Assembly (NCBI RefSeq): GCF_017357225.1
Contig: NZ_CP071604.1
Coordinates: 3,537,001 to 3,601,000 of the forward strand
Origin: Rhizobium binae
Lineage (GTDB): Bacteria > Pseudomonadota > Alphaproteobacteria > Rhizobiales > Rhizobiaceae
Reading direction: 5' to 3'
DNA: 64,000 nucleotides
Shown here: positions 45,767-64,000 of the stretch, piece by piece
Layout of the letters: each line of letters begins with the position of its first letter
Numbering within the stretch: position 1 is the first letter of the stretch
Translations under genes and position numbers: made by a program
Notes under the pieces: model-generated
Seen by the model: the letters and a program-made list of their open reading frames with translations, nothing else
What the model was told of the DNA's origin: nothing
The model's database searches: none

Positions 45767-46945
45767 ATGACGGACATGCTTCGACGGATATTGGCGTTTG
45801 GCTCCATCGCAATACTCATGCCCCTGGCCGCGATGGCGCAGGGCGCTCCGGCCGCCCCTCCTCCCGTCACTGTCGCAAAACCAGTGGTGCGCGATGTCAT
45901 CGACAATGACGAATTCATCGGCCGTTTCCAGCCGGTCGACGAGGTCGCCGTCCGTTCGCGCGTCGGCGGCTATCTGCAGGAGGTCCATTTCGAAGACGGC
46001 GCATTGGTGAAGCAGGGAGACCTGCTCTTCGTCATCGACCAGCGTCCCTTCATAACCGCGCTCAACCAGGCAAAGGCCGCCCTCGAAGCGTCGCAGTCCG
46101 CCCTGGTCTTTGCCGATGCGCAATACAAACGCGCCCAGTCGCTCGCATCGAGCGGCAGCCAGTCCGCACAGACGCTCGACGATCGCCGCCGCGAATTCGA
46201 TTCCGCCCAGGCGAATGTGCGAGGCGCCCAGGCCGCGGCCGACCGTGCCGCTCTCGACATGGAATATACGGAGATCAGGGCGCCGCTCAGCGGCCGCATC
46301 GACCGTCGCCTGATTTCCACCGGCAATCTCGTGCAGGCCAACCAGACTGTGCTCACCACCATCGTTTCGCTTGATCCGATCGATTTCTATTTCGACGTCG
46401 ACGAACGCCGCCTGCTGAATTTTGCCGCAACCGCGCGTAAGCAGGGCGAGGATCTTCAACTGGGCGGCGGCGGCGTGGACGTTTCCGTCACGATCTCGGA
46501 CCCCACGGCCAAGCCCTTCAAGGGAAAACTCGACTTCGCCGAAAACCGCGTCGACAACGAGAGCGGCACCATCCGCATCCGCGCCCGCCTCCCAAATCCT
46601 GATCTTGTCCTTCAGCCTGGTCTCTTCGGCCGCGTCCAGGTCGCAGCCTCAAACACCTATAAGGCTATCCTCGTGCCCGACGAGGCAATCGGCTCGGACC
46701 AGAATGAACGCGTCGTCTATGTCGTCGATGCGCAAGGAAAGGTTACGACAAAGCCCGTGCGGCCCGGCCCGCGGCTCTACGGCTATCGCGTGATCCGCGA
46801 GGGCCTCGACGGCACGGAGACGATCATCGTCAATGGCCTGATGCGCGCAAGGCCAGGTTCGACGATCACGCCTCAGATGACCGAACTGCCGCAGGAGCGG
46901 CAGGACACTGCGCCGGAAGCCGCCAGCGCGGAGAACGGACAATGA
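45767..46945 (+). CDS. RND efflux periplasmic adaptor, pump 2
   Basis: A 392-residue membrane fusion protein of the MexE/AcrA class. The signal peptide is MLRRILAFGSIAILMPLAAM with cleavage after AQG. Lipoyl half one is RSRVGGYLQEVHFEDGALVK, then a coiled coil (about 100-165) and lipoyl half two, EIRAPLSGRIDRRLISTGNL. The end is Glu/Ala-rich. TTGGAGGG precedes the ATG at 45767. The stop overlaps the permease start (ATGA at 46942-46945), so the two are coupled. Confidence 0.94.
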   Translation: MTDMLRRILAFGSIAILMPLAAMAQGAPAAPPPVTVAKPVVRDVIDNDEFIGRFQPVDEVAVRSRVGGYLQEVHFEDGALVKQGDLLFVIDQRPFITALNQAKAALEASQSALVFADAQYKRAQSLASSGSQSAQTLDDRRREFDSAQANVRGAQAAADRAALDMEYTEIRAPLSGRIDRRLISTGNLVQANQTVLTTIVSLDPIDFYFDVDERRLLNFAATARKQGEDLQLGGGGVDVSVTISDPTAKPFKGKLDFAENRVDNESGTIRIRARLPNPDLVLQPGLFGRVQVAASNTYKAILVPDEAIGSDQNERVVYVVDAQGKVTTKPVRPGPRLYGYRVIREGLDGTETIIVNGLMRARPGSTITPQMTELPQERQDTAPEAASAENGQ

Positions 46946-49900: not shown

Positions 49901-50127
49901 CGGCATTCGCCTTCATCTTCGGCGTTCTCCCGCTTGCCATCGCTACCGGCCCCGGCGCCGAAATGCGCCAGTCGCTCGGCACCGCCGTCTTCTCGGGCAT
50001 GCTCGGCGTCACGCTCTTCGGCCTGTTCCTCACGCCGGTCTTCTATGTCGTGCTGCGCGGCTGGCGTCGCAAACGCTCGGTCGAAAGGCCGGTCGAGGCC
50101 GTCCCGACCGAGAGGGAGACGGCCTGA
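46942..50127 (+). CDS. RND multidrug efflux permease (HAE1, MexF-like), pump 2
   Basis: A 1061-residue proton-driven exporter. It has FFVDRPIFAAVISIVFLVVG at the N-terminus, then LPVSQYPEIAPPTIVVRTSY and GIVVDDAIVVVENVERNLAR with the proton-relay aspartates. The porter loops include GFIPTMDQGYAIIVVQLPDG, and the second repeat includes IGLAAKNAILIVEFARQAEE. It differs from pump 1 in sequence and orientation, so it is not a recent duplicate. No TolC-type gene follows; the next gene is convergent. Confidence 0.95.
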   Translation: MRFAHFFVDRPIFAAVISIVFLVVGGIAYTQLPVSQYPEIAPPTIVVRTSYPGADPQTIADTVSTPLEQQINGVEDMLYMSSYSSADGAMSLTITFKLGTDLDKVQVLVQNRVSIALPRLPEEVQRLGVTTDKSSPDLMMVVHLLSPSHRYDQLYVSNYARNRIRDVLVRLDGVGDVQIFGERQYSMRIWLDPEKLSAYGMTSDDVVSALRDQNVQVSGGKIGAPPVTGKNAFEYTVRTDGRFSDVREFRYVIVKSTGAGRLVQLQDVARIELGAQDYVTNSYLNNDPAVALGIFARPGTNALDTAHQVQTLMKDISQNFPPGLEYRIVYDTTEFISDSINEVYRTIAEAAILVAIVVLVFLQSWRTAIIPIVAIPVSLIGTFAILLAFGFSLNMLTLFGLVLAIGIVVDDAIVVVENVERNLARGMTAKQASHVTMDEVGTAVVAISLVLIAVFVPTAFIPGITGQFYRQFAVTISVTTAISALNSLTLSPALAGILLKPHDHETKRTNIATQLGRGLANGFNRGFDRMSSGYSWIVRHLVSSWVGLTCAMLAFVALLGATWYMGNRVPSGFIPTMDQGYAIIVVQLPDGASLARTDAVVKQVGDIARTVPGVGNAVQFAGFSGATFTNASNAGVVFVPFKSFAEREEGGENANKIIGELYGKLQAIQEAFIIAIPPPSVRGVGNSGGFKMQISDLENPDMTRVLGLARQMMGAAATTEGLTGVFTTFSDASPQYFLSIDRDKARFLNVPIPNIFNALSINLGVAYVNDFNAFGRVYQVRAQADRQYRMDKEDILALKVRSASGALVPLGTLMDIQDSSGPALVQRYNMYVSVPLQGNPTPGTSTGDAIKKMEALAAKILPPGTTFEWTELAYQETHTGNTAIYIFALSVIFVFLALAAQYESWVLPLAIILIVPLAVLAALIGVSLRGMDNNVLTQIGLIVLIGLAAKNAILIVEFARQAEEEGKSPVEAAIEASHLRLRPILMTAFAFIFGVLPLAIATGPGAEMRQSLGTAVFSGMLGVTLFGLFLTPVFYVVLRGWRRKRSVERPVEAVPTERETA

Positions 50128-50163
50128 CCACGGTGATGGCGCAGCCCTCCCTGTGGCGTGATG

Positions 50164-50940
50164 TCAGGTGGAAAACAGATGCACCTGGCCCTCCCACAGA
50201 CGGGCGACGGTCAGCCTGCCGCTGCGGAAGGCGCGTGTGTCGAGATTGAGCCGCCTCGCGCGGACCTCCGGCTCGTCGTTCGGCGTATGACCATGAACGA
50301 CGAGCTTCGGCAGGGGGATCCTGCTTTGGAGAAAACGGTGGCGGATGAGGACCAGATCCTCCTCCGTCTGTGCCGCGAGCGGCAACATGGGATCGATGCC
50401 CGCGTGCACGAATACCACGTGAGGCGTATCCAGCATGATCGGCATCGCCCGCATGAAGTCGATGTGCGTATGCGGCAGCGATTGGCGGAGGAAGGCATCG
50501 AGCTGCGCGCCGGAGGGGAAGACCAGCGGCAGATGCTCCGGATCGAGCCCATAGGATTTGAGCAGCTCCGCCGACCCCATGCGCATCCAGTCGTCATAAG
50601 AGAGCCAGCCTTCGACATAATCGAGCATGGCGATCTCGTGATTGCCGGCAAGACAGATCCGATCGAAACCATCCGGCGGCGGCTCGATGAGATGATTGAT
50701 GACCTGCGCCGACTCCGGGCCGCGGTCGATATAGTCGCCGAGTGTCACAATCAGCTTACGCCCGGGCAACCGCGCCGCATCACGCAGGATCGCCTGCTCG
50801 GCTTTCACAAGCAGATCGTACCGGCCATGAATGTCGCCGATCGCATAGGTCGGAATGTCGGCGATATCCAGCGTCAGACGCGGTCTCGGCTGGCGTGCCA
50901 TTTTCGAAACCTCGCTATGGCGAGCAAGACGTTCGCTCAT
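50164..50940 (-). CDS. PPP-family metallophosphoesterase (serine/threonine phosphatase or ApaH-like)
   Basis: A 258-residue dinuclear-metal phosphatase. The motif series is complete: YAIGDIHGRYDLL (near 32-44), TLGDYIDRGPES (66-77), LAGNHEIAML (near 98), a His in VFVHAGIDPML, and VVHGHTPNDEP. Bacterial relatives act on phosphoproteins or on diadenosine tetraphosphate, which cannot be separated here. The start at 50940 is the first in-frame ATG downstream of a repeat element that fills the upstream DNA; ATGs at 50943 and 50901 are alternatives. Confidence 0.9.
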   Translation of the reverse strand: MSERLARHSEVSKMARQPRPRLTLDIADIPTYAIGDIHGRYDLLVKAEQAILRDAARLPGRKLIVTLGDYIDRGPESAQVINHLIEPPPDGFDRICLAGNHEIAMLDYVEGWLSYDDWMRMGSAELLKSYGLDPEHLPLVFPSGAQLDAFLRQSLPHTHIDFMRAMPIMLDTPHVVFVHAGIDPMLPLAAQTEEDLVLIRHRFLQSRIPLPKLVVHGHTPNDEPEVRARRLNLDTRAFRSGRLTVARLWEGQVHLFST

Positions 50941-50953
50941 CATGTTTCTCAAT

Positions 50954-51064
50954 CTTAAGCATGTCGCGCAAAACTGTGCAGCGCTTTTGCGGCAACGACG
51001 TGCGAGAAAAAATAAAAATGCAAAGCGCAAGGAGCGAACCTGAAGGATCGCGACGCGCTTTGGG
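50954..51064. repeat. Interspersed rhizobial palindromic repeat, copy 2
   Basis: About 110 nt, same family and orientation as 18525-18630. It shares TTAAGCATGTCGCGCAAAA at the left, TTTTGCGGCAACGACGTGC in the middle and GGATCGCGACGCGCTTTG at the right. It lies immediately upstream of the phosphatase start and probably contributes its leader. Confidence 0.8.
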
Positions 51065-51488
51065 AGACCTCGGTTAACCATAAGTAGCGGCGAGAACAAG
51101 GCGATCAAGTTGGTCAGAAAATTCCAGGCATCCGGCTTTTCTGGAAAAACCGCCCTGTCGATATCGGGACTGACGGCAATTGCTGTGCCGCCCGAGCATG
51201 AAGGTGCCGAACGCCCTGCTCGCCGAAGTCGTCGCGATCATCGCCGAGGCCGATGCCTCGATCGGCGAACTCTGGAGCATCTTTTTTCCGTGCTGGAAAC
51301 CCTTCCCATCCAGGATCTGAAGGCATCGCTGTTTGCGCGCGCTGCTCTCGATCGTCATTGGCGCAATGCCCGCATTCACGCGCTGTCGCTGCCACGCGAT
51401 GCATTGCTGCGCGGCGCAGGCGACATGCGTCGAAGTTTGGCAACGCGTGAATCGCTGCTGGCCTGAAATTATCTGAAGCCGAAAGATT
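51065..51488. other. Gene-free stretch with a possible decayed small gene
   Basis: About 420 nt without an intact gene. On the plus strand, ATG at 51198 opens a short frame (KVPNALLAEVVAIIAEADAS and GELWSIFFP). It appears to continue in another frame (SVLETLPIQDLKASLFARAA) after about 51290, as if frameshifted. I recognise no family, and this may be chance. Confidence 0.3.
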
Positions 51489-51953
51489 TCAGCTGGCTGC
51501 GGAAATCGGCACTTCTTCCCGCGTGTCTTCGATACGGCCGCCGGCCGCGACGAATTGCTCGAGGGTCATATTGTCGAGAATGGCGGCGATCGCGTCCCGA
51601 ACATCGGTCATCGAGCGCCGCACCTGACAGGTTTCCGGGTCGGCGCAATCGTCACACGCCTCATACGCCGTGCGGCTGGCGCAGCGGATCGGCGCCAGCG
51701 GCCCATCAAGCGTGCGGATGACATGGCCGATGCGGATCTCGGAGGCCGGCCGCGAGAGGGAATAACCGCCGCCAGGCCCCTTTTTCGAACGCAGGATGCC
51801 GACATTGCGCAGTTCCAAGAGGATCGTATCGAGGAACTTCTTCGGGATATTGTTACGGGCCGCAACGTCGTTGATGAAGGCAGTCTCGCCCGGCGGCAGC
51901 CGCGCCAGATCGACCAGCGCCTTCAGGCCGTATTTTCCCTTTTTCGTCAGCAT
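51489..51953 (-). CDS. Rrf2-family transcriptional regulator with cysteine cluster
   Basis: A 154-residue protein. The winged helix is MLTKKGKYGLKALVDLARL with recognition part IPKKFLDTILLELRNVGILR and wing SKKGPGGGYSLSRP. Cysteines at 91, 100, 103 and 109 lie where IscR-like proteins bind an Fe-S cluster, so redox, iron or sulfur sensing is plausible. It is not RirA-like at the N-terminus. The ATG at 51953 starts the domain. An AT-rich dyad-like stretch lies upstream at about 52026-52048 (ATAAAATAGGTATTATTTAT) and may be its own operator. Targets are unknown. Confidence 0.9.
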   Translation of the reverse strand: MLTKKGKYGLKALVDLARLPPGETAFINDVAARNNIPKKFLDTILLELRNVGILRSKKGPGGGYSLSRPASEIRIGHVIRTLDGPLAPIRCASRTAYEACDDCADPETCQVRRSMTDVRDAIAAILDNMTLEQFVAAGGRIEDTREEVPISAAS

Positions 51954-52144
51954 TGTCTTTGCCCTGTCGAAAACGCAACAATTATCCTGCCGACAGCAGG
52001 CAATAGCGTCGAAAGCGTGAAGATACAATAAAATAGGTATTATTTATAGCTTATATTGGCAACATCTGCAGTGCCGGCAACGGTGGCGGCATTCTCAACA
52101 TGGCTCGATTGCGCCACTCGCTCGTGATCGCCCGCGCTGTACCG

Positions 52145-52933
52145 TCAGATCGTCTTGAGCATACCGCCGTCGACGAAATAGGTCGATCCGATGCAGTAAC
52201 TCGCCCGTTCCGAACTCAGAAAGACGAAGACGTTCGCCAGCTCTTCCGGCGTGCCGAACCGTTTGGAAGCAGCATGCTCATTGGCGACACTCTGCAGATA
52301 CCCTTCCCAGTTCCCGCCGCTTTCGGCGGTCAGCGCCTTGGCGGTCTTGATCCAGTCAGGCGTCAGGATCAGGCCGGCATTGACGCAGTTGACGCGGATA
52401 TTATCCGGGATGAGCTCGGTCGAGAGCGTCTTCGAAAACATCATCAGCGCCGATTTGCTGACATTGTAGATCGGTTCGTACCAGAGCGGCTGGACGGCGC
52501 AGATCGAGGCATTGTGCAGGATCACCCCGCCGCCTCGCTTCTTCATCTGCGGTGCGATGCCGCGCGCAAGCCTCACGGCGGCCATCACGTGCAGGTCCCA
52601 ATAGGCCTGCCATTTCTCATCAGGCGCCTCCATGACGGTCTCGTTCGATCCGGTGCCGGCATTATTGATGAGGATATCGGCGCCACCCTTTTCGGCAGCC
52701 GCGGCAATGATCGCCTCCGTTCCCGCAGCCGTCGCGACGTCGGCGGCGACGGCGGTGGCGCTGACGCCGAATTTCTCGGCAATGCGGGCGCCCTCCGCCT
52801 CCAGCCGTTCGCCGCCACGCGCAGCCAGCACGAGGTCCACGCCCTCAGCCGCCAGCCCTTCGGCGATCGCCAGTCCGATGCCGACCGACGCACCCGTTAT
52901 GACGGCGATCTTACCCTTCAATCCCAGATCCAT
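52145..52933 (-). CDS. Short-chain dehydrogenase/reductase
   Basis: A 262-residue classical SDR. It has the Rossmann motif TGASVGIG (13-20), NNAG (90-93), catalytic S143 and Y156-x-x-x-K160 (YNVSK), and a C-terminal CIGSTYFVDGG. GGAGGAAG lies before the ATG at 52933. It is divergent from the first hydroxypyruvate isomerase-like gene (138 nt), so it probably belongs to the same catabolic locus, oxidising or reducing a sugar or polyol. Substrate and cofactor preference are not evident. Confidence 0.9.
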   Translation of the reverse strand: MDLGLKGKIAVITGASVGIGLAIAEGLAAEGVDLVLAARGGERLEAEGARIAEKFGVSATAVAADVATAAGTEAIIAAAAEKGGADILINNAGTGSNETVMEAPDEKWQAYWDLHVMAAVRLARGIAPQMKKRGGGVILHNASICAVQPLWYEPIYNVSKSALMMFSKTLSTELIPDNIRVNCVNAGLILTPDWIKTAKALTAESGGNWEGYLQSVANEHAASKRFGTPEELANVFVFLSSERASYCIGSTYFVDGGMLKTI

Positions 52934-53071
52934 GTCTTCCTCCGAAGCGCCGGCGATCCCGGCTCGTGGAAGCAAGTGTTCCGCCAATGAATCCGGGCGT
53001 CAAGCACCCAAACGCCTCTTGCGGCGGTCTCCGTTCTGTCGCAGCCTGCATCCGCACCGGGAGGAGTTTTC

Positions 53072-53842
53072 ATGCGACGTTATTCAGCCTGTATAGAGTG
53101 GCTGTTTGCCGAGGACGGCGACAACTTTCCCGACCGCATCCGTCGCGCCCATGCTGGCGGCCTGACGGCGGTCGAATTCTGGCGCTGGACCGACAAGGAT
53201 CTGGACGCGATCGAGGCGGCGTTGAAGGAAACCGGCCTTGCCGTCACCAGCCTCGTCGCCGAGCCGATGATCGCGCTGACCGATGCCGCCAACCGGAAGG
53301 CCTGGCTGAAAGGCCTTGCCGATTCCGTCACAGTCGCCAAACGCCTCGGCGCGCCGGTGCTGATCGCCCAGGCAGGCGACGATCTCGCCGGCTTCAGCCG
53401 TGAAGAACAGCGCCGGGCCCTCAGCGAAACCTTGAAACCAGGTGCCGATATCCTGAAAGGCAGCGGCGTGCGGCTCGGCGTAGAACCTCTCAACATCCGT
53501 ATCGATCATATCGGCTACTTCCTCGATTCAACCCGCGAAGGCCTCGACGTCGTCGATGACGTCGCCCGCCCCGAGATCGGCATCGTCTACGACATCTACC
53601 ATTCCGCCGTGATGGGCGAACGCACCGAAGACGTGCTGGACGGCCGCCTCGACCGTGTTTTCCACGTCCATGTCGCCGATCATCCCGGCCGCAACGAACC
53701 GGGTTCCGGCGGGATAGACCTCGCTCATCGCCTCGACTGGATCTTCGCCAACGGCTATGCCGGCGCCGTCGGTCTGGAATACCGGCCGACCAAGCCCGGC
53801 GCGGACGCAGTCAAGGCTGCCATTGCTGCGCTCGGTGGTTAA
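53072..53842 (+). CDS. Hydroxypyruvate isomerase-like TIM-barrel protein, copy 1
   Basis: A 256-residue AP-endonuclease-2-type TIM barrel. Its motifs fit the Hyi/OtnI group: EWLFAEDGDNFPDRIRRAHA near the N-terminus, the metal ligand Glu in LGVEPLNIR, IVYDIYHSAVMGE, and HVHVADHPGRNEPGSGGID. Relatives isomerise hydroxypyruvate or 2-oxo-tetronates. AGGAG precedes the ATG. Its stop overlaps the convergent lacI-type stop. A paralogue closes the ABC operon at 63295. Confidence 0.85.
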   Translation: MRRYSACIEWLFAEDGDNFPDRIRRAHAGGLTAVEFWRWTDKDLDAIEAALKETGLAVTSLVAEPMIALTDAANRKAWLKGLADSVTVAKRLGAPVLIAQAGDDLAGFSREEQRRALSETLKPGADILKGSGVRLGVEPLNIRIDHIGYFLDSTREGLDVVDDVARPEIGIVYDIYHSAVMGERTEDVLDGRLDRVFHVHVADHPGRNEPGSGGIDLAHRLDWIFANGYAGAVGLEYRPTKPGADAVKAAIAALGG

Positions 53843-54858
53843 ACCCCGGGGACATCGACGCTCGCCGCCGCCTTGCAGGGTCCGGCCGAGCGGCGCTCGA
53901 TAATGCGCGAGGCGATCATGATGCGCCTCGCCGGCATGCCCGGCAGGCGTGGATTCTCGATCCGCTCAAGCAATAGCCGCAGCCCCACGGCCCCGCATTC
54001 CTGCCCCTCCATCCTCACCGTCGTCAGCGCCGGCGAGATCAGTGACGCCGGCGAGTAGTCGCCGAAACCGACAACCGAAATATCGTCCGGAATGCGGTAC
54101 CCCTGCCCAAGCAGTTCGGAGACCACGGTCAGCGCTAACCCGTCATGGGCGCAGAAAAAAGCCGTCGGGCGAATGCCTTTGTCCACGAGCGCCCGGAACG
54201 CCGTGCCGAAGCCATTCTCTTCGTCGAATTGCATAACATGGAGCGCAACATCAGGATAACGTTCGGCGATTTCGCGAGCGCCGTAATGGCGCTCCTGACG
54301 TCCCCGCAGGCCCGGCATGCCATAGACGTACACGATGGACCGGTGGCCGAGTCCGACTAGATACTCCACCACCGCCTGCCCTGCCTCATGGTCGGTGCCG
54401 CCGACATGGTCGACCTGCTCGAGCGCATCGACCCAGCCGAAACGCACGATCGGAACGCCGGTGGCGCTCGCCGCTGCCACGGCCTCACGGGCATGCGGAC
54501 CAACGAGCATCAGGCCATCACAGCTGCGCGCCAACTCTTCCAACTGGCCGACATCATGGGTCCAGCGCACGCGCAGCGTCATGCCAAGCCGATGAGCCTC
54601 TCGCTGCACACCGTTCTGCACCTGCATATAGAGCTCGCTGTTGACGGCATCGAGATCGTGAAAGACCACCGCAACCTCGCCGGCAGCACCATGCCCGGCG
54701 GGCTTGGTGTAGCCTAGGCGCTGCGCCGTGTCGCGGATCAGCGCGCGCGTTTCCTCGCTGACACCGCTCTTGCCGGCGAGCGACCGCGAGACCGCAAATT
54801 TCGACAGCCCGACCTCTCGCGCGATCGTCTGCAAAGTAACCCGGCCCCTGCTTCCCAC
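53839..54858 (-). CDS. LacI-family transcriptional regulator
   Basis: A 339-residue repressor. The helix-turn-helix at about residues 5-25 is VTLQTIAREVGLSKFAVSRS, followed by the hinge ALIRDTAQRLGYTKPA and a periplasmic-binding-protein-like sensor domain. That domain includes LMLVGPHAREAVAAASATGV, the sugar-site sequence VRFGWVDALEQVDHVGGTDH, and FFCAHDGLALTVVSELLGQG. It is divergent from the binding-protein operon (178 nt), so it probably controls that operon. The ligand is unknown. Confidence 0.93.
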   Translation of the reverse strand: MGSRGRVTLQTIAREVGLSKFAVSRSLAGKSGVSEETRALIRDTAQRLGYTKPAGHGAAGEVAVVFHDLDAVNSELYMQVQNGVQREAHRLGMTLRVRWTHDVGQLEELARSCDGLMLVGPHAREAVAAASATGVPIVRFGWVDALEQVDHVGGTDHEAGQAVVEYLVGLGHRSIVYVYGMPGLRGRQERHYGAREIAERYPDVALHVMQFDEENGFGTAFRALVDKGIRPTAFFCAHDGLALTVVSELLGQGYRIPDDISVVGFGDYSPASLISPALTTVRMEGQECGAVGLRLLLERIENPRLPGMPARRIMIASRIIERRSAGPCKAAASVDVPGV

Positions 54859-54882
54859 GTGGCACCTCGCCCTTCGATTGAT

Positions 54883-54908
54883 AGGCGCTGGTTATACCAA
54901 CTGCGCCT
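54883..54908. promoter_or_regulatory. LacI operator candidate
   Basis: Nested symmetry between the divergent lacI-type and binding-protein genes: inner TGGT-TAT-ACCA (54889-54899) flanked by AGGCGC (54883-54888) and GCGCCT (54903-54908). It is 25 nt from the regulator ATG and 129 nt from the operon start. Confidence 0.5.
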
Positions 54909-55036
54909 GTATGCCAAATTTTCTCACTAACGTGAACATAACGCTTTACCTAACAATATCCAAATGTAATCTTTCCCTCATCCCGGCCCCACAGCAAAAA
55001 TAATGATAATGGCACGGGTTTTTGGAGGAGATCCCT

Positions 55037-56962
55037 ATGATCAAGCTGAAACGACGTGCGTTTCTGGCCGGGACGTCGGCCGCCCTGATAATGCCGGCCC
55101 TGCCGGTTTTCGCCGCTGACTTCAAGGAAGCGGATGTCCTGAAAGCGAAAGTGTCGAGCGGCGCCCTGCCGGGTCTCCAGGAGAGGCTTCCCGAAAATCC
55201 GCTCGTCGTCAAACCGGTTGAAAGCATCGGCAAATACGGCGGCGACTGGAATATGGCGCTAGTCGGCGGCGGGTCGCTGTCGATGCTGTTCCGCTACCAG
55301 GCCTATGAGCCGCTGCTACGCTATACGCGCGATTGGTCTGGCGTGACGCTGAATGTCGCCGAGTCCTTTGAGGGCGATGCCGACTCCAAGGTCTATACGA
55401 TCCGCCTGCGCAAGGGCATGAAATGGTCGGATGGCCATCCCTACACCACCGCCGACATCAAGTTCTGGTACGATACTGTTTTCACCGACAAGCGCGTCGC
55501 CTTTGTCGGTCAGGATCATTGGAAATCCGGCGGTAAGCCGGCCAAGCTGGAGATCGTGGACGAGCAGACCTTCAAGGTCATCTTCGACAAGCCGAACGGC
55601 CTGTTCCCGCTGCAGGTCGCCTGGGCAAACAACGATCAGACGACGCGCACGCCGAAGCATTATCTCGAGCAATTCCACATCGATTACAATCCGAAGGCCG
55701 ATGAACTCGCCAAGCAACGCGGCTTCGAAAGTTGGATCGCGTCGTTCCAGGCGGCCGCCGGCTTCCAGGACGACAACGCCTTCTTCCTCAACTCCTCGAA
55801 GAAGCCCTGCGTGCATGCCTGGGTGTTCACGATCGCGCCAGGCGAAAACACCGAACGGGCTGTTGCCGAGCGCAATCCATACTATTGGAAGGTTGATAGC
55901 GAGGGCAACCAGCTGCCCTATATGGACCGCATCGTTTACCAGATGGTCGCCGACCCGCAGGTTCTGCTGCTGAAGGCCATGCAGGGCGAGGTCGACCTGA
56001 TGGACCAGTACATTGCCACGCCGAACAACAAATCGGTTCTCTACGATGCGCGTGAGCAGGGCGGCTATGATTTCTACACGCTGACTTCGACCGAAGCCAA
56101 TGTCATGAATTTCATCTTCAACCTGAACCACAATGACGAGACCAAGCGGAAGCTCTTCCGGAACAAGGATTTCCGTGCCGCACTCTCGACCGCACTCGAC
56201 CGGCAGTCGCTGATCGATGCGGTGCTCGTCGGCCAGGGGGCGCCTGCCCAGCCGTCGATCAAGAAGGAAGATCCGCTTTACAACGAGCAACTCGCCACGC
56301 AGTTCACGGCCTATGACGTCGACAAGGCGAATGCCATGCTCGATCAGATCGTGCCGAAGCGCGACGACCAGAACTTCCGCCTCGACGAAAAGGGCCGCCG
56401 CCTGACGATCATCTTCGAGATCGACCAGGCGCGCGCCGTCTTCCTCGATCTCTTCCAGCTGGTGATCCCGATGTTCCAGGCGGTCGGCATCGATGCGCAG
56501 ATGCGCACGATGGACCGTTCGCTCTGGGAGACGCGCGTCCGCCAGGGCCGTGATTTCGATGCGACCGCCCATCAGTTCGGCGCAAATGGCGGCGTCGCCG
56601 CCATGCTCGACCCGCGCTACTACGTGCCGACCGATGCCAACGCCATGTACGCCCCGGCCTGGCAACTCTGGTATCGCGACCGCACCAATGCCAATGCCGA
56701 GGAACCGCCGGAAAGCACGAAGAACCAGCTTGCGCTCTACGACAAGCTGAAGACGACTTCCGACCCATCGGGCCAGCGCGAGGTCATGAAGCAGATCCTT
56801 CAAGGCGCCGCCGACAATTTCTATGTCTTCGGCATCTCGCTGCCGCCCGACGGCTACGGCATCGTCAAAAACAACATGAAGAACATCACGAAAACCATGC
56901 CGAACTCCTTCGGCTGGCCGACGCCCGCTCCGACCATGCCGGAGCAGTTCTACAAGGTCTAG
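55037..56962 (+). CDS. ABC transporter binding protein, SBP_bac_5 family, Tat-exported
   Basis: A 641-residue periplasmic binding protein of the peptide/oligosaccharide type. The N-terminus MIKLKRRAFLAGTSAALIMP has a twin-arginine motif and hydrophobic core, cleaved near AFAAD-like FAAD. The family part shows YEPLLRYTRDWSGVTLNVAE, KGMKWSDGHPYTTADIKFWY and a long C-terminal lobe. The length of over 600 residues fits members that bind oligosaccharides or glycosides rather than dipeptides. GGAGGAG precedes the ATG. It is the first gene of the rightward operon. Its TAG stop lies at the edge of a palindromic repeat. Confidence 0.92.
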   Translation: MIKLKRRAFLAGTSAALIMPALPVFAADFKEADVLKAKVSSGALPGLQERLPENPLVVKPVESIGKYGGDWNMALVGGGSLSMLFRYQAYEPLLRYTRDWSGVTLNVAESFEGDADSKVYTIRLRKGMKWSDGHPYTTADIKFWYDTVFTDKRVAFVGQDHWKSGGKPAKLEIVDEQTFKVIFDKPNGLFPLQVAWANNDQTTRTPKHYLEQFHIDYNPKADELAKQRGFESWIASFQAAAGFQDDNAFFLNSSKKPCVHAWVFTIAPGENTERAVAERNPYYWKVDSEGNQLPYMDRIVYQMVADPQVLLLKAMQGEVDLMDQYIATPNNKSVLYDAREQGGYDFYTLTSTEANVMNFIFNLNHNDETKRKLFRNKDFRAALSTALDRQSLIDAVLVGQGAPAQPSIKKEDPLYNEQLATQFTAYDVDKANAMLDQIVPKRDDQNFRLDEKGRRLTIIFEIDQARAVFLDLFQLVIPMFQAVGIDAQMRTMDRSLWETRVRQGRDFDATAHQFGANGGVAAMLDPRYYVPTDANAMYAPAWQLWYRDRTNANAEEPPESTKNQLALYDKLKTTSDPSGQREVMKQILQGAADNFYVFGISLPPDGYGIVKNNMKNITKTMPNSFGWPTPAPTMPEQFYKV

Positions 56963-57060
56963 AGCAGTTCCAGGAAAATGCGAAGCGGTTTTCCTGGAAC
57001 TGCGTTAAGACAAAAACTCAGAGCGATTACACGACTGGTAAGATTGAACCGCTCTGATGA
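56960..57060. repeat. Palindromic repeat with 15-bp perfect stem
   Basis: GCAGTTCCAGGAAAA (56964-56978), a 10-nt loop, and TTTTCCTGGAACTGC (56989-57003). A second inverted pair is AGAGCG (57010-57015) with CGCTCT (57050-57055). Elements with this GTTCCAGGAAAA core are common between Rhizobium genes. It sits between the binding-protein and glycosidase genes and may tune their relative expression. Confidence 0.75.
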
Positions 57061-57069
57061 CCTTTTTCC

Positions 57070-59253
57070 ATGATGCCTTCTCAGGCGCCGGCCCCTCCGG
57101 TTGGCGCTGAGGCGCTCTCTTTTGCCAATGATTGGATGAAGACGATGCTCGACGCCAGGAGACAGAACACCCACACGCTGAGGACGCCGGACTGGTTTAA
57201 GACCGCGACCCGCTGGACCCAGCTGACCTTCGTGGAAGACGACCCGGAGAAATACGACCCGGCCTTCTGGATCGACGTCTTCAAACGCACGAAATCGAAC
57301 GCGGTCTGCCTCAGTGCCGGCGGCTATATCGCCTATTATCCGAGCGAAGTGCCTTACCACTATGTCAGCAAATATCTCGGCGACAAGGATATCTTCGGCG
57401 CGCTCGTCGATGCCGCCCGCAAGCTCGACATGCACGTCATGGCCCGCGTCGACCCGCATGCGGTCCATGACGATGCGGCCAAAGCCAATCCGGAATGGGT
57501 GATGATCAATGCCGACGGCACGCCGCGCCGCCACTGGGCCTATCCCGATGTCTGGGTCACCAATGCTTATGGCGACTACAACACCGTCTTCATGCCTGAG
57601 GTGGTCAAGGAGATCGTCCGCAAATACGATATCGACGCGGTCTTCGCCAATCGCTGGCAGGGCCACGGCGTCGATTACAGCGAAGACAGCGCCCGCCGCT
57701 TCAAGGACATGTTCGGCTATGCCCTTCCTGCAAGACCCGATGCCGAGGATCCCGCCTGGCAGGCCTGGGTGCAGTGGCGCCGCCGCGTGCTCACCGACAT
57801 GATCGCGCAGTGGGACGATGCCGTCAAAGCGATCCGCCCGCATGCGAGCTTCATTCCGAACATGGGTGGCGCTTCGCTGATGGAATTCGATCTCTCGGTC
57901 ATCGCCAAACACTGCCCCTTCCTCGTCGTCGACCATCAGGGCCGCAAGGGCCTTGAGCTCGGCTGGTCGGCAGGCCGCAATGGCAAGCGCATCCGAGCCA
58001 CCTTCCCCGACCGCCCGGTCGTGCTGATCACCTCGATCGGCCCCGAGGAGGAATATCGCTGGAAGGATGCCGTCACCTCGGGCGAGGAGATGCAGCTCTG
58101 GATCAATGACGGCACCGCCCACGGCCTCTACGCCTGGTTCACCAAGTTCAACGGCGTCGTGCCTGACAAACGCTGGGTCGAGCCGGTGGCCGACGCATTC
58201 GCCCTGCAGGCAGCCATCGAGCCGGTGCTGGAAAGCATGAAGCCGACCGCCGAAATCGCCGTCATCGATCCCTCGACGACGCTGCGCCACTGGGCGCCGG
58301 AAGAACGGCATTCCGCCGAGAAGCACGACCTCGGTTTCTACCATGCCCTCGTCGAGGCCCGCCTGCCCTTCGAGCTGCTTTCGGACCAGGTGTTGACCGA
58401 CGAGAGCCTCGATCGGTTCAAGCTCATCATCCTTGCCAACGCTTCCTGCCTTTCGGATGCGCAGAACGCGGCGATCCGCGCCTATGTCGATCGCGGTGGC
58501 AGCATGATTGCCTCTTACGAGACGTCGCTGCGCGACGAATTCGGCAAGAAGCGCCCCGACTTCGGCCTCGCCGACGTGCTGGGTGCCAGCTACGTCTCCG
58601 GCCCGCGCGGCATCGTCAAGAACACCTATGTCGCACTTTCCGGCGATCACCCGATCAACCGGGGCTTCGACGGCGCCGAGCGCATCATGGGCGGCACTCG
58701 CCTGATCCACGCCGTACCGTCGGCCGATGCGAAGGCGCCCTTCCTCTACGTTCCCGACTTTCCCGATCTGCCGATGGAAGAGGTCTATCCGCGAGAAGAA
58801 CCAAAAGGTGCTGCCGTCATCGCCCGCGAGACTGGCAAGGGTGGCCGCACAGTCTATATTCCCTGGAATATCGGTGAGATCTTCTGGGAGGTCTATGCCG
58901 TCGATCATGCGCGGCTCCTCGCCAACGCCGTCCATTGGGCACTCGGCAAGACACCACGCGTCACCATCGAGGGCAAGGGCGTCATCGATCTGGCGCTACG
59001 CGAAAACGGTGAGGGCATGGCAGTCAGCCTCTTCAACCTCACCAACCCGATGATGATGAAAGGCCCGATCCGCGACAATTACCCTCTGGCAGCGCAGACC
59101 ATTTCGGTGGAGATTCCGGAGGGCCGATCGGTGGCGAAGGCATGGCTCGTCGTTGCCGACCGCGCCGCAAGCTTCAGCCTTGCGAACGGCCGTGCGCAGG
59201 TGGAGGTGCCCGGTATCGACCGGCTGGAAGTCCTGCATCTCACCTGGAAATGA
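57070..59253 (+). CDS. Putative glycoside hydrolase (GHL6-like TIM barrel plus GATase-like domain)
   Basis: A 727-residue cytoplasmic protein without a signal peptide. The N-terminal region (about 30-370) reads as a TIM barrel: WTQLTFVEDDPEKYDPAFWI, DPHAVHDDAAKANPEWVMIN, IDAVFANRWQGHGVDYSEDS and FNGVVPDKRW. Residues of about 395-620 resemble the beta-galactosidase trimerisation (GATase-like) fold: HDLGFYHALVEARLPFELLS, IRAYVDRGGSMIASYETSLR and VYIPWNIGEIFWEVY. A beta-rich tail follows. This fits the hypothetical glycosyl hydrolase 6 group (GHL6). The bond cleaved is unknown. It probably processes the imported ligand. The start at 57070 lacks a strong ribosome-binding site; an ATG follows directly at 57073. 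Confidence 0.75.
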   Translation: MMPSQAPAPPVGAEALSFANDWMKTMLDARRQNTHTLRTPDWFKTATRWTQLTFVEDDPEKYDPAFWIDVFKRTKSNAVCLSAGGYIAYYPSEVPYHYVSKYLGDKDIFGALVDAARKLDMHVMARVDPHAVHDDAAKANPEWVMINADGTPRRHWAYPDVWVTNAYGDYNTVFMPEVVKEIVRKYDIDAVFANRWQGHGVDYSEDSARRFKDMFGYALPARPDAEDPAWQAWVQWRRRVLTDMIAQWDDAVKAIRPHASFIPNMGGASLMEFDLSVIAKHCPFLVVDHQGRKGLELGWSAGRNGKRIRATFPDRPVVLITSIGPEEEYRWKDAVTSGEEMQLWINDGTAHGLYAWFTKFNGVVPDKRWVEPVADAFALQAAIEPVLESMKPTAEIAVIDPSTTLRHWAPEERHSAEKHDLGFYHALVEARLPFELLSDQVLTDESLDRFKLIILANASCLSDAQNAAIRAYVDRGGSMIASYETSLRDEFGKKRPDFGLADVLGASYVSGPRGIVKNTYVALSGDHPINRGFDGAERIMGGTRLIHAVPSADAKAPFLYVPDFPDLPMEEVYPREEPKGAAVIARETGKGGRTVYIPWNIGEIFWEVYAVDHARLLANAVHWALGKTPRVTIEGKGVIDLALRENGEGMAVSLFNLTNPMMMKGPIRDNYPLAAQTISVEIPEGRSVAKAWLVVADRAASFSLANGRAQVEVPGIDRLEVLHLTWK

Positions 59254-59357
59254 AGTGACAGGCGACGGAGGAGCGCTTTCGGCCTGAAGGGCCGACGGCG
59301 CGTGAAGATCCGGGGGAGGCGCGTCACAGCGTTCCCGACGGGAGGAGAAACGTTTCG

Positions 59358-60344
59358 ATGCTTGGCTATATCTTCAAGCGCGTACTCTACATGATCCCGA
59401 CCTTGTTCGGCATGTCGCTGATCTCGTTCCTGATCATCCAGCTGCCGCCAGGTGATTACCTGACCTCGATGATCGCCACCATGAGCGACAGCGGCCAAAC
59501 CGTCGATCCCGCTCAGATCGAGCGGCTGAAGGAAATCTACGGCTTCGATGACCCCTTCTATGTCCAATACCTCAAATGGATCTGGGGCATCGTCAGCCGC
59601 GGCGACTTCGGCTACTCCTTCGAGTGGAGTCAGCCAGTCTCCGGGCTGATCTGGGCGCGTATGGGCTCGACGCTGGTTATCTCGCTCTTGAGCCTGCTCT
59701 TCGTCTGGATCGTGGCTTTGCCGATCGGCGTCTATTCCGCCGTCCGCCGCCACTCCGTCGGCGACCATGTCTTCACCTTTCTCGGCTTCATCGGCCTTGC
59801 GGTGCCGAACTTCATCCTGGCGCTGACGTTGATGTACATCGCCTATAAATTTCTTGGCCAGAGCGTCGGCGGGCTGGTCTCGCCGGCATATGCCGAAGCG
59901 CCCTGGAGCTTTGCCAAGGTCGGCGATTTCCTCGCCCATCTCTGGATCCCGATCATCATCATTGGCGCGTCTGGAACGGCAGCGATGATCCGGATCCTGC
60001 GCGCCAACCTGACCGACGAACTGCACAAGCCCTATGTCGTTACGGCCCGCGCCAAGGGACTGCCGGAATACAAGGTGATCCTCAAGTATCCGGTCAGAAT
60101 CGCGCTCAATCCCTTCGTCTCGGCGATCGGCTGGGTGCTGCCGCATCTCGTTTCGGGCGTGACGATCACTGCCATCGTGCTGAACCTGCCGACCGCTGGT
60201 CCCCTGCTTTTCCGCGCGCTGATCTCGCAGGACATGTACCTCGCCGGCAGCTTCGTTCTGCTTTTGAGCGCGCTGACCCTTGTCGGCATGCTGCTGTCGG
60301 ATCTGCTGCTGGCCCTGCTCGATCCACGCATCCGGTTCAATTGA
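59358..60344 (+). CDS. Peptide-type ABC transporter permease 1 (OppB/DppB family)
   Basis: A 328-residue inner-membrane subunit with six helices. Visible parts are the N-terminal MLGYIFKRVLYMIPTLFGMS, LDDPFYVQYLKWIWGIVSRG-like FDDPFYVQYLKWIWG, and the coupling motif LPEYKVILKYPVRIALNPFV. A loop of about 50 residues (GLVSPAYAEAPWSFAKVGDF) extends the usual structure. GGGAGGAG precedes the ATG. It pairs with the permease encoded 11 nt downstream. Confidence 0.93.
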   Translation: MLGYIFKRVLYMIPTLFGMSLISFLIIQLPPGDYLTSMIATMSDSGQTVDPAQIERLKEIYGFDDPFYVQYLKWIWGIVSRGDFGYSFEWSQPVSGLIWARMGSTLVISLLSLLFVWIVALPIGVYSAVRRHSVGDHVFTFLGFIGLAVPNFILALTLMYIAYKFLGQSVGGLVSPAYAEAPWSFAKVGDFLAHLWIPIIIIGASGTAAMIRILRANLTDELHKPYVVTARAKGLPEYKVILKYPVRIALNPFVSAIGWVLPHLVSGVTITAIVLNLPTAGPLLFRALISQDMYLAGSFVLLLSALTLVGMLLSDLLLALLDPRIRFN

Positions 60345-60355
60345 GGGCGAACGCG

Positions 60356-61546
60356 ATGAGCACGCACGAGACCTTCGGAAATCATGCTGGTCCGCTTCAC
60401 ACTGTTGCCGATGGCCCCTCGATCAGCCCATTGAAACAGGGCAAGACCGTCTCGACCGCAGCGATCGGTCCCTGGCGGCTGGTCGCTGGCAAGCTGATCC
60501 GCCAGAAGGTGGCGATGGTGGCCGGCGTCATTATCCTCTGCCTCTATCTGGTCGGTCTGTTAGCCGAATTCCTGGCGCCCGCTTTGCCGATGACCTCGCG
60601 GCCGCAATACACCTATGCCCCGCCGCAGGGCTTCAGCTTCTTCGTCGAAAAGCCGGACGGCAGCTCTGAGTTCAATATCCATGTGAAGGGCTACAAGGTC
60701 GAGATCGACAAGGTGGCGCTACGCCGCACCTTCGTCGTCGACGACACCAAGGTCGTCCCGATCGGCTTCTTCGTCAAAGGCGCGGCCTACGATCTCTGGG
60801 GCGTGATCCCGATGAACCGGCACCTGATCGGCCCGCTCAACCAAAACGACCCGATGTACCTGCTCGGCGCCGACCGGCTCGGCCGCGATGTCTTCTCTCG
60901 GCTCGTCTACGGCACCCGCGTATCCATGTCGATCGGCCTCGTCGGCGTCGCCATGTCGCTGATCCTCGGCGTCGTGCTCGGCTCGATCTCCGGTTTCTAC
61001 GGCGGCTGGGTCGATACGCTGATCCAGCGCGTCATCGAGGTCGTCAGTGCAATGCCGACCATCCCGCTGTGGCTCGGCCTGGCGGCGGCGATCCCGCTGA
61101 CATGGTCGCCGGTCAATGTCTATTTCGTCATAACGATCATCGTCTCGCTGCTCGGCTGGACCAGCCTGGCGCGTGAAGTGCGCGGCCGGTTCCTGGCGCT
61201 GCGCAGTGAGGATTTCGTCGTTGCCGCCAGGCTCGACGGATCCAGCGAGACCAGGCTGATCTTTCGGCATATCCTGCCGTCACTGACAAGCCATATCCTT
61301 GCGGTCGTCACACTGGCCGTACCGACCATGATCGTCGCCGAGACCTCTCTTTCCTTCCTCGGCATCGGCCTTAAGCCGCCGGTCGTCAGTTGGGGCGTGC
61401 TGCTGCAGGACGCCCAGAACATCCGCACCGTCGCCACCGCGCCGTGGCTCTTGATCTGGCCGTCGCTCGCAGTCGTCATCGCCGTCCTGTCCTTCAATTT
61501 CTTCGGCGACGGCCTGCGCGATGCCGCCGACCCCTACGACAATTGA
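60356..61546 (+). CDS. Peptide-type ABC transporter permease 2 (OppC/DppC family)
   Basis: A 396-residue permease, longer than the usual 280-300. Between the first helix (VAMVAGVIILCLYLVGLLAE) and the core there is a periplasmic insertion of about 130 residues (YTYAPPQGFSFFVEKPDGSS). The core has LGADRLGRDVFSRLVYGTRV, then RLDGSSETRLIFRHILPSLT as the coupling loop and AETSLSFLGIGLKPPVVSWG. The ATG at 60356 follows GAGGGCG; a TTG at 60341 lies inside the previous gene. The insertion is typical of permeases paired with long SBP_bac_5 proteins. Confidence 0.92.
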   Translation: MSTHETFGNHAGPLHTVADGPSISPLKQGKTVSTAAIGPWRLVAGKLIRQKVAMVAGVIILCLYLVGLLAEFLAPALPMTSRPQYTYAPPQGFSFFVEKPDGSSEFNIHVKGYKVEIDKVALRRTFVVDDTKVVPIGFFVKGAAYDLWGVIPMNRHLIGPLNQNDPMYLLGADRLGRDVFSRLVYGTRVSMSIGLVGVAMSLILGVVLGSISGFYGGWVDTLIQRVIEVVSAMPTIPLWLGLAAAIPLTWSPVNVYFVITIIVSLLGWTSLAREVRGRFLALRSEDFVVAARLDGSSETRLIFRHILPSLTSHILAVVTLAVPTMIVAETSLSFLGIGLKPPVVSWGVLLQDAQNIRTVATAPWLLIWPSLAVVIAVLSFNFFGDGLRDAADPYDN

Positions 61547-61556
61547 GGAGGAAACC

Positions 61557-63284
61557 ATGGCCGACCTTTCAAAAGACGTCGTTCTCTCCGTCGAAAACCT
61601 CTCGATCGATTTCAGGCTGCGCACCCACATCCTGCACGCCGTCGAAAATGTCAGTTTCGAGCTGAAACGCGGGCAAACGCTGTGCCTCGTCGGTGAAAGC
61701 GGCTCCGGCAAGAGCGTCACCGCCCGTTCGCTGCTGCAGATCGTCGACAGCCCCGGCAGTATTGTTTCCGGCCGCATCCTGCTCAGGGACGGCGACGGGG
61801 CCACCGGAAGTCACGGAATCACCGATATTGCCGTCTTGAAGCCGTCCGATCGGGCGATGCGGGCCATCCGCGGTCGCCGCATCGGCCTGATCTTCCAGGA
61901 GCCGATGAGTTCGCTGTCGCCGGTTCACACCATCGGTTCGCAGATCATTGAGGCGGTGCGCCTGCACAGTGATCTCGATCATCGCGCCGCCCGCGAAAGG
62001 ACCGTCGAACTGCTGCGACAGGTCGAGATCCCGAACCCGGACAAGATGGCTGACCGCTACACCTTCGAATTCTCCGGCGGCATGCGCCAACGCGCCATGA
62101 TCGCCATGGCGCTTGCCGGCAATCCCGACATTCTCATCGCCGACGAGCCGACGACAGCCCTCGACGTCACCACCCAGGCCGAAATCCTCGATCTGATCAA
62201 GCGCCTGCAGGTCGAACGCGGCATGGCCATGCTGCTCATCACCCATGACATGGGGATCGTCGCCGAAGTGGCCGACGATGTCGCCGTCATGCGCTTCGGC
62301 CGCATCGTCGAGCGCGGACCCGTCGATGCAATCTACCATGCCGCCGAACATCCCTATACCCGCCAACTGCTTGCCTCGACAGTCAAGCTCACGCATCATG
62401 TCGATGGCAAGCTGCCCGCCATAGCACTGTCGCCGGCGGCACCGCAGCCGATCCTGTCCGTCCGCCACCTCAGCAAGATCTATGGTTGGCACGGCAAGGC
62501 CAACACGTTGCGCGCCGTCGACGACGCCAGCTTCGATCTCTATCCCGGCGAAAACCTCGGTATTGTCGGCGAAAGCGGCTCCGGCAAGACGACACTCGGC
62601 CGGCTCATCCTGCGCACCGTCGAGCCGACCTCGGGCAGCATCAGCTATTGCGGCAAGGACGGCGGCGAGATCGACGTCACCAAACTCACCAAGCGCGAAC
62701 TCCGCACATTCCATCGCGAAGTCCGCTTGGTTTTTCAGGATCCCTTCGCCTCGCTCAATCCGCGCATGACTGTCAAGGAGGTGATCGGCGATCCGCTTGT
62801 TGTCAACGGGCTGGCAAGGGGCAAGGCGCTGGCGGACCGTGTCGCCGAACTGATGCGCCTTGTCGGCCTCGACCCGATGGGGATGGAGCGTTATCCACAT
62901 GCCTTCTCCGGCGGCCAGCGCCAGCGCATCGGCATCGCTCGCGCGCTTGCGCTCGACCCACGCATCATCATCGCCGATGAGGCGACGTCCGCTCTCGATG
63001 TCTCGATCCGCAGCCAGATTCTCGACCTGCTGCTCGATATCCGTCAACGGCTGAACCTAAGCTTCATCTTCATTTCGCACGACATTTCGGTGGTGCGTTA
63101 TTTCTGCGATCGTGTCGCCGTCATGCATCGCGGCAAGATCGTCGAACTCGGCGAGGCCGAACAGATCTGCACCGCTCCTGAGGGGGCCTATACGAAGAGC
63201 CTCATCTCCGCCGTTCCCAATCCCGACCCTCGCGACAAGCGCATGCTGCACCGGCATCGTTTCGTCGCGTCTGCCGATATCTAA
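61557..63284 (+). CDS. Fused double ATPase of the ABC transporter (OppD-OppF type)
   Basis: A 575-residue protein carrying two complete ATPase domains. Domain 1 has Walker A GESGSGKS near residues 46-53, signature [15 protein letters not shown] and Walker [13 protein letters not shown]. Domain 2 has Walker [10 protein letters not shown] at about 338-346, signature [15 protein letters not shown] and Walker [13 protein letters not shown]. Each ends with the OppD/F helix ([20 protein letters not shown] or similar). Both sites look active. GGAGGAAA precedes the ATG at 61557. One fused gene replaces the usual separate oppD and oppF. Confidence 0.94.
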
Positions 63285-63294
63285 GGACGATCCC

Positions 63295-64000
63295 GTGCAG
63301 AAATTTTCCGCCAACCTTTCCTTCCTCTACCAAGACCTGCCCTTTCTCGACCGCTTCGCCGCTGCTGCAAAGGACGGCTTCGGTGCCCTCGAATATCTGG
63401 GCCCCTATGCCGAACCCAGGGAGAAGGTTGCCGAGGCGCTGAAGGCAAGCGGCCTGAAACAGGCGCTCTTCAACGTGCCGTCCGGCGACTGGGCCGGCGG
63501 CGAGCGCGGCATCGCCTGCCTGCCGGAGCGTGCAGAGGAGTTCCGCGATGGACTCGAGCAGGCGCTCGACTATGCCGCAGCGCTCGATTGCCGGCAGGTG
63601 AATGTCATCTCCGGCCTGGTGCCAAAAGGTGCGGACCTTCAAACGCTGGAAACGGTGCTGGTCGGCAATCTGAAATATGCTGCGAAACGTTGTGCCGACG
63701 CCGGCGTCACCCTGCTGATCGAGCCGATCAACCTGCGGGATATTCCGGGTTTCTTTCTGTCGACCACCACCCATGCGGAGCGCATCCTCGACAGGGTCGG
63801 TTCCGACAACCTCTATATCCAGTATGATTTCTACCACATGCAGGTCATGCAGGGCGATCTGATCCCCACCTTCACCCGACTTAAGGAGAAAATCGCCCAT
63901 GTGCAGATCGCCGACCATCCTGGGCGCAACGAGCCCGGCACCGGCGAGATCAACTACAATTTCATCCTCTCCGAACTCGACCGCCTCGGCTACGACGGCT
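63295..64000 (+). CDS. Hydroxypyruvate isomerase-like TIM-barrel protein, copy 2, truncated by window end
   Basis: A GTG start at 63295 with AAGGAC upstream, 10 nt after the ATPase stop; the frame runs off the right edge after about 235 residues. It carries the Hyi signatures QKFSANLSFLYQDLPFLDRF, FNVPSGDWAGGERGIACLPE, LLIEPINLRDIPGFFLSTTT, YIQYDFYHMQVMQGDL and HVQIADHPGRNEPGTGEINY. It is closer to canonical hydroxypyruvate isomerase (gcl-hyi type) than copy 1. In this operon a role as 2-oxo-tetronate or sugar isomerase is also possible. Confidence 0.9.
   Translation, partial: MQKFSANLSFLYQDLPFLDRFAAAAKDGFGALEYLGPYAEPREKVAEALKASGLKQALFNVPSGDWAGGERGIACLPERAEEFRDGLEQALDYAAALDCRQVNVISGLVPKGADLQTLETVLVGNLKYAAKRCADAGVTLLIEPINLRDIPGFFLSTTTHAERILDRVGSDNLYIQYDFYHMQVMQGDLIPTFTRLKEKIAHVQIADHPGRNEPGTGEINYNFILSELDRLGYDG

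Follow-up and report, generated by a model that had tools for sequence, protein, structure and literature searches.

The right-hand end (positions 52145–64000) of a 64,000-nucleotide stretch of the Rhizobium binae genome (contig NZ_CP071604.1, positions 3,537,001–3,601,000; hereafter, the window) carries a LacI-family regulator gene and, divergent from it, genes for a solute-binding protein (SBP), a GHL6 protein, an Opp-type transporter and the isomerase Hyi2, which continue beyond the window with the reductase GlxR and a GH42-type hydrolase. This is a real, conserved set of genes, predicted to form a catabolic operon of a known plan, in which a LacI regulator is combined with an Opp-type oligosaccharide importer and cytoplasmic glycosidases, and two points about it appear unusual: GHL6 is a glycosidase-like protein that seems to lack the expected nucleophile, and a hydroxypyruvate/tartronate semialdehyde (TSA) branch is linked to it. 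We propose that the operon imports and cleaves an acidic, probably uronate-containing oligosaccharide and feeds a three-carbon branch, a reading to which we give an even chance of being correct.

In this scheme, a LacI-type repressor bound at one operator between the lacI-type gene and the SBP gene would control a single catabolic operon; the exported SBP would capture the acidic, probably uronate-containing oligosaccharide, OppB–OppC–OppDF would import it, and its cytoplasmic cleavage would fall to GHL6 and the GH42-type enzyme. A three-carbon product would then pass through Hyi2 (hydroxypyruvate/TSA) and GlxR (TSA to D-glycerate) and, in those relatives whose gene row includes one, on to a glycerate-kinase-family protein. 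The sugar chain is likely to be plant-derived, and its users rhizobia and their relatives.

An initial annotation, made from the sequence alone, had pointed to a possible undescribed, LacI-controlled locus for glycoside or sugar-acid use. The open reading frame list of the window confirms its eight frames and the start of a ninth, and a domain search bears out the families named (SDR, AP_endonuc_2 TIM barrels at both ends, LacI, SBP_bac_5, GHL6, OppB, OppC and a two-ABC OppDF). Its suggestion that more enzymes may follow the cut-off right end was borne out by extension rightward, which yielded GlxR and the GH42-type gene. No description of the operon was found among listings of open PubMed Central papers, within which the epithet 'undescribed' stands.

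Conservation and extent of the operon

The neighbourhood of GHL6 was compared across 80 loci, these being the best 80 of 329 relatives in named genomes with GHL6 as the query. A gene was scored as present when the fetched stretch contained, at any position, a relative within preset identity limits; many of the loci are from near-identical strains and some contigs end early, such that the counts are not of independent events and a gene unseen in a locus is not proof of its absence. Relatives of SBP, GHL6, OppB, OppC and OppDF occur together in 75 of the 80 loci and, because the four transporter components share a stretch with GHL6 this often, the clustering is not due to chance; the neighbourhood comparison that the initial annotation had proposed thereby returns a conserved set that includes the transporter. 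Taken singly, LacI (at least 38% identity), SBP and OppB are seen in 76, 77 and 78 loci, respectively, OppC and OppDF in 75 each, and Hyi2, GlxR and GH42 in 64, 55 and 51. Most loci, from Rhizobium, Neorhizobium, Agrobacterium, Sinorhizobium, Devosia, Inquilinus, Aureimonas and Rhodobacteraceae, share one gene order and orientation, with rearrangements in L046, L069, L076, L084 and L091 (our locus numbers); those with 94–95% GHL6 identity are mostly from Rhizobium leguminosarum and close species. The predicted core is LacI divergent from SBP–GHL6–OppB–OppC–OppDF, usually plus Hyi2, GlxR and GH42. The SDR (at least 70% identity) and the second isomerase, Hyi1, are found in just 16 of the 80 loci, the SDR accompanying the locus only in the R. 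leguminosarum/BK-strain group; we therefore reject this pair as core parts and regard it as a local addition.

In seven loci (L063, L064, L067 and L072–L075; Devosia and one Rhizobiales isolate), a Gfo/Idh/MocA dehydrogenase and a PF01261 barrel of ∼305 residues lie between OppDF and Hyi2, and no GH42 was seen; this pair is perhaps an oxidative replacement for GH42. A class-wide search for GHL6 in 385 genomes (E 1e-60) found it in its own genome and one other only. A further relative, P0091 (76% identity), is filed in a eukaryote protein set, possibly through bacterial contamination.

The solute-binding protein

The SBP bears a twin-arginine leader (KRRAFLAG), and the motif RRx[FILMV][LIVMF] lies within the first 45 residues of 74 of the 78 orthologous SBPs, in keeping with the Tat-exported SBP_bac_5 protein predicted initially. 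Its closest solved structures are SPH1118 (7ver; E 8.4e-94), 5ipw (E 3.5e-81), which we take to be TM0300/GloE, and a periplasmic alpha-galactoside-binding protein of the same family (6epy; presumably AgpA), which binds sugar but is a much weaker match (E 3.2e-24). SPH1118, from Sphingomonas sp. A1, is an SBP_bac_5 protein of similar length, identical to the SBP at 199 of 591 aligned positions (34%). As reported in PMC9314435, it binds galacturonate (GalA) and unsaturated tri-GalA; Arg57, Arg438 and Arg466 make four, five and four hydrogen bonds, respectively, and the ligand residues include Asn53, Arg57, Glu216, Leu295, Ser298, Asn324, Arg438, Arg466, Asp483, Arg496, Glu505, Phe592 and Trp594. 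Its arginines R57, R438, R466 and R496 correspond to R91, R471, R499 and R532 of the SBP (numbered from 55022), and all four are Arg in 78 of 78 orthologous SBPs from 77 loci. The R438 position is Ser, Pro and Gly in two paralogues from the same genome and 5ipw. These arginines suggest that the SBP ligand is acidic; as the other polar ligand residues mostly differ, it is probably not the same as that of SPH1118, and we do not claim oligogalacturonate. The uptake of a glycoside followed by cytoplasmic cleavage, as envisaged initially, is consistent with relatives that bind pectin or an alpha-galactoside and with two glycosidase-like enzymes in the operon.

A uronate context, in favour of this reading, comes from seven Neorhizobium-type loci, in which GH28, GH88-family and KduI genes lie just upstream (domains were tested in one locus, and the other six assigned by 85–93% identity), and from L069 (Mesorhizobium), in which a uronate dehydrogenase (3rft; E 5.9e-49) adjoins GHL6, with a lactonase 5.5 kb further on.

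The same genome has two paralogous long-SBP/OppBC systems, some neighbours of which were labelled in part by reading translations. That of L010 (C3:24000-43000) adjoins a fucosidase-like gene, presumably GH29, which PF14871 also touches (E 3.3e-4), whereas that of L011 (C2:513000-529274) adjoins a uronate-dehydrogenase-like gene and two galactonate-dehydratase-like genes below cut-off.

The GHL6 and GH42-type enzymes

GHL6 matches the GH151 fold over its whole length, the nearest solved fold being the alpha-L-fucosidase ALfuk2 (6tvk; 16% identity), for which the nucleophile is given as D154, at the end of strand 4 (PMC10154630). In GHL6, this place is taken by Asn194 (numbered from 57070), right after strand 190–193, in a weak 17-bit profile alignment for which we inferred a 29-residue numbering offset for D154. 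The residue is Asn in 118 of 118 rows (the query and 117 proteins longer than 650 residues among 120 of the 1954 matches) and in 32 of 32 wider rows; in L129 and L132 it is immediately preceded by an Asp, which a one-residue shift could bring to the nucleophile place in those two. GHL6 thus appears to lack the catalytic residue of its nearest solved relative. Strand 6 carries an acid, Asp288 (within strand 285–291), which in 31 of the 32 wider rows is either Asp or Glu; it may or may not be the counterpart of Glu235, the acid/base at the end of strand 6 in ALfuk2. Among 10 wider relatives, the position is D in five, E in four and T in one, and another alignment gaps this strand in three. Asp128 is Asp in 30 of the 32 wider rows.

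The GH42-type enzyme passes the cut-offs for PF02449 (154.2 over 21) and PF08532 (62.5 over 25.8), and has both catalytic glutamates; Glu164 and Glu318, whose individual roles are presumed, are conserved in at least 97% of 52 rows.

These enzymes also accommodate a neutral ligand, which we consider possible, if rather unlikely: a galactoside or an L-fucoside/L-galactoside, e.g. a xyloglucan or galactan side-chain fragment, from which GH42 would remove beta-galactose and GHL6 an alpha-L-sugar. The nearest solved fold of GHL6 is that of a fucosidase, and Mfuc3, an active alpha-L-fucosidase from soil, gives a Pfam match to GHL6 (PMC4723247) and has since been assigned to GH151 (PMC10154630); the GH42-type enzyme has both glutamates, the SBP relatives include the alpha-galactoside binder, and the L010 system lies beside the fucosidase-like gene. 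The precedent would be the xyloglucan locus of Thermotoga maritima (gloR/gloEFGKL-cel74-fucA), where a local regulator of the LacI family is likewise encoded divergently from glycosidases and a transporter of five genes, but its glycosidases are different and no Hyi or GlxR is named in the available portion of its description (PMC3750489). Moreover, R438 and R496 are not kept in 5ipw, nor R438 in the L010 paralogue, GHL6 has Asn at the fucosidase nucleophile place, and a neutral ligand leaves Hyi2–GlxR unexplained.

The three-carbon branch

Hyi2 passes both relevant curated cut-offs, hydroxypyruvate isomerase (TIGR03234; 355.5 over 353.45) and 2-oxo-tetronate isomerase (NF043033; 360.5 over 325), and its two candidate activities are therefore not separated. 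GlxR scores as a TSA reductase (TIGR01505; 382.5 over 340.75) and falls short of L-threonate dehydrogenase (176.8; cut-off 350). No other protein encoded in the genome exceeds the cut-off for hydroxypyruvate isomerase or for TSA reductase. Hyi1 is far below for both isomerases (147 bits versus 353.45 for TIGR03234, and 100.5 for 2-oxo-tetronate isomerase); its best solved relative is 3ngf (E 4.2e-17), and it also matches the 3-keto-D-glucoside 4-epimerase 6wn6 (E 1.5e-9). The 'two Hyi/OtnI-type isomerases' annotated originally are both AP_endonuc_2 barrels, but they are unequal; the predicted isomerization of a 2-oxo acid can be kept in part, for Hyi2, now joined to a TSA reductase.

The arrangement resembles the gcl-hyi-glxR glyoxylate operon of Pseudomonas aeruginosa (PA1498–PA1502), in which Hyi adjoins a TSA reductase that feeds D-glycerate and, as its description suggests, may limit the loss of TSA by tautomerization before GlxR reduces it (PMC12694930). 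Here, by contrast, the pair is joined to sugar uptake, and no glyoxylate carboligase (Gcl) is present in the operon or over cut-off in the whole genome (best 343.6 versus 711.2); ordinary glyoxylate assimilation is accordingly rejected. A glycerate-kinase-family gene (DUF4147 and MOFRL) follows GlxR, or stands beside GHL6 in L091, in 11 of the 80 loci.

GHL6 and the three-carbon branch are linked in another lineage too. Relatives of GHL6 lie on 43 plasmid records, 10 of them from Sphingobium, and the plasmid of Sphingobium sp. TomTYG74 (AP027342.1; L128 and L133) carries two GHL6 genes with SDR–GlxR–Hyi–glycerate kinase–permease; this GlxR and Hyi share 62 and 54% identity with GlxR and Hyi2, respectively, and no Opp system is annotated in the 48 kb read. 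The region also has a cyclase, a second MOFRL protein, RpiB/RbsK and a TonB receptor. We also considered whether the region might be connected with the breakdown of tomatine, an idea dropped because 'hydroxypyruvate' and 'GHL6' occur 0 times in the main text of PMC10653915.

The ligand might alternatively be a glycoside of a three-carbon acid (a glycosyl-glycerate or similar), whose cleavage would free glycerate or hydroxypyruvate, with a dehydrogenase, Hyi and GlxR turning L- into D-glycerate. We regard this as doubtful. It would account for Hyi2–GlxR in the operon of a genome with no Gcl over cut-off, for the glycerate-kinase-family genes, and for the same enzymes in Sphingobium beside two GHL6 genes and a gene annotated as L-lactate permease, and an acidic ligand would also fit the SBP arginines; against this, no direct evidence points to such a ligand, not every locus with GHL6 and the transporter shows Hyi2 and GlxR, and the window SDR is unmatched in the Sphingobium region (E 1e-12, more than 100 residues). 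In the same vein, it is conceivable, though improbable, that the GHL6 branch is a separate glycoside-cleaving class, with a GH151-like barrel, a fixed Asn for the nucleophile and an acid kept on strand 6, which inverts, uses another acid (Asp128) or cleaves acidic glycosides non-hydrolytically, releasing a three-carbon acid; this would explain why the Hyi–GlxR–glycerate kinase set is linked to it in rhizobia and also in Sphingobium, where the uptake genes are different.

Tetronate or apiose catabolism, as suggested in the initial annotation, is highly improbable: Hyi2 does pass the 2-oxo-tetronate isomerase cut-off, but GlxR is far from L-threonate dehydrogenase, no otn kinase- or aldolase-type gene is found among the operon families, and the glycosidases would be unexplained. 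A second Hyi-like and HIBADH-like pair, both below cut-off (C2:388886-390555; L095 and L109), is a possible tetronate locus and may serve these substrates instead.

Evidence against an acidic oligosaccharide

A number of observations weigh against the uptake of an acidic, uronate-containing oligosaccharide linked to a three-carbon branch. Among the four arginines, R438 alone is distinctive, as both paralogues share R57, all proteins compared share R466 and the L011 paralogue shares R496. The other SPH1118 ligand residues mostly differ: Asn53 is replaced by Ser, Glu216 by Asp or Val, Asn324 by Glu or Ala, Asp483 by His and Glu505 by Asn, the SBP itself having S, D, E, H and N at these positions; the match to Phe592 and Trp594 hangs on gap placement, being aligned by HMMER and not by MAFFT. 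Hyi2, GlxR and GH42 are unseen in many of the 80 loci (some contigs end early) and are therefore not fixed parts, and the glycerate-kinase genes score below the NCBIfam cut-offs. Our panel finds uronate genes near only eight of the 80 loci (nine with the KdgD-like and dehydratase-like genes of L050).

Finally, conversion of uronate to hexarate and, via GarL, to TSA is an attractive route for which this genome gives no support: no GarL is over cut-off in the genome (the best match is an HpaI aldolase), no glucarate-dehydratase match was found in it (galactarate dehydratase was not searched for), and hexarates seem to pass through KdgD (479.7 over 373.95), a route that would not give TSA.

The permeases and ATPase

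OppC does contain the insertion noted initially, but it spans ∼74 residues (84–157) rather than ∼130, as measured against only three short OppC-type proteins (287–355 residues). The OppC proteins of the two paralogous systems are also long (377 and 373 residues), so the length looks like a subfamily trait. That the SBP takes peptides only is unlikely, and an importer of peptides or opines that happens to neighbour unrelated enzymes is scarcely credible: family 5 SBPs and Opp permeases commonly carry peptide-transporter annotations, but the curated Opp4, NikA and Dpp profile models match the SBP and permeases below cut-off, two glycosidase-like genes lie in the operon, and pectin rather than oligopeptides is recognized by SPH1118 in its authors' view (PMC9314435).

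The control region

The LacI–SBP gap contains the sequence ATAACGCTTTACCTAAC, which is exact in 52 of the 80 loci; across a larger collection of 133 loci it is exact in 53, of which one is a piece of the window's own genome. This conserved 17-bp stretch was chosen by eye from printed gaps and then tested by pattern search: it has one site in the window at up to three mismatches (a match arose in 1 of 100 shuffles) and one in the genome (7.06 Mb in 8 contigs) at up to two. The reversed pattern also has one match in the genome, and the argument for an operator is therefore one of conservation, not enrichment. The near-palindromic core, TAACGCTTTA, would suit a LacI-type protein. In the window search, the motif was not found in the SDR–Hyi1 gap, which argues against the single LacI-controlled block, including SDR and Hyi1, of the initial annotation; indeed, these two genes diverge (− and +, respectively), Hyi1 converges on LacI and the pair is infrequent. 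What survives is probable LacI control of the core, with a putative operator in the LacI–SBP gap only.

A perfect palindromic operator was rejected, as even palindromes recurred at most twice; 5-mer inverted repeats fared no better, being shared by at most 2 of 42 representative gaps (some empty or very short owing to the choice of start), when shuffles reach 2 in 7 of 50. A promoter scan of 52880–55080 found no sigma-70-type site and did not call the TTTACC-N16-TAATCT pair (54945–54972) that overlaps the putative operator, so that this pair lacks support as a promoter.

Layout of the locus

Coordinates are collected in Table 1. The open reading frame list starts SBP at 55022, but an ATG after GGAGGAG lies at 55037; for GHL6, the ATG at 57145 agrees with the starts of most relatives (earlier frame start 57070). 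Past the GH42-type gene are a minus-strand gene without a Pfam hit, a cupin and then, on the other strand, sugar-type ABC transporter genes. Upstream of the locus is an RND-type efflux transporter frame (46942–50127; labelled from its translation). No Rfam family scored above its gathering score in 50000–64000.

Table 1. Features of the locus, in window coordinates
Feature	Position	Strand	Remarks
SDR dehydrogenase	52145..52987	-	adh_short_C2 3.6e-46; accessory
Hyi1, remote hydroxypyruvate-isomerase-like TIM barrel	53072..53842	+	Accessory; divergent from SDR
LacI-family regulator	53839..54858	-	LacI and Peripla_BP_3; divergent from operon
Putative LacI operator ATAACGCTTTACCTAAC	54938..54954	+	Near-palindromic core TAACGCTTTA
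SBP_bac_5 solute-binding protein, Tat-type leader	55037..56962	+	PF00496 4.9e-52
GHL6 protein, GH151-like fold	57145..59253	+	
OppB-type permease	59358..60344	+	BPD_transp_1 1.3e-25
OppC-type permease	60341..61546	+	BPD_transp_1 6.2e-27, OppC_N 6.9e-10
Fused OppDF ATPase	61521..63284	+	Two ABC_tran stretches, 1.1e-58
Hyi2, hydroxypyruvate isomerase/2-oxo-tetronate isomerase family	63295..64000, ends 64089 in genome	+	GTG start
GlxR, 2-hydroxy-3-oxopropionate (TSA) reductase	64086-64961, beyond window		4-base overlap with Hyi2
GH42-type hydrolase, 700 residues	65067-67169, beyond window		Follows GlxR

Implications

PF14871, whose hits include GH151 fucosidases such as Mfuc3, still goes under the name 'hypothetical glycosyl hydrolase 6', and the fixed Asn of GHL6 poses a sharp question of mechanism. 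Many plant- and soil-associated Alphaproteobacteria share the operon as a conserved trait. It has a single regulator, a single putative operator and a single transporter, so that one binding protein is enough to search for its ligand. If that ligand is a plant uronic-acid oligosaccharide, the operon would name a carbon source near roots for legume symbionts and agrobacteria.

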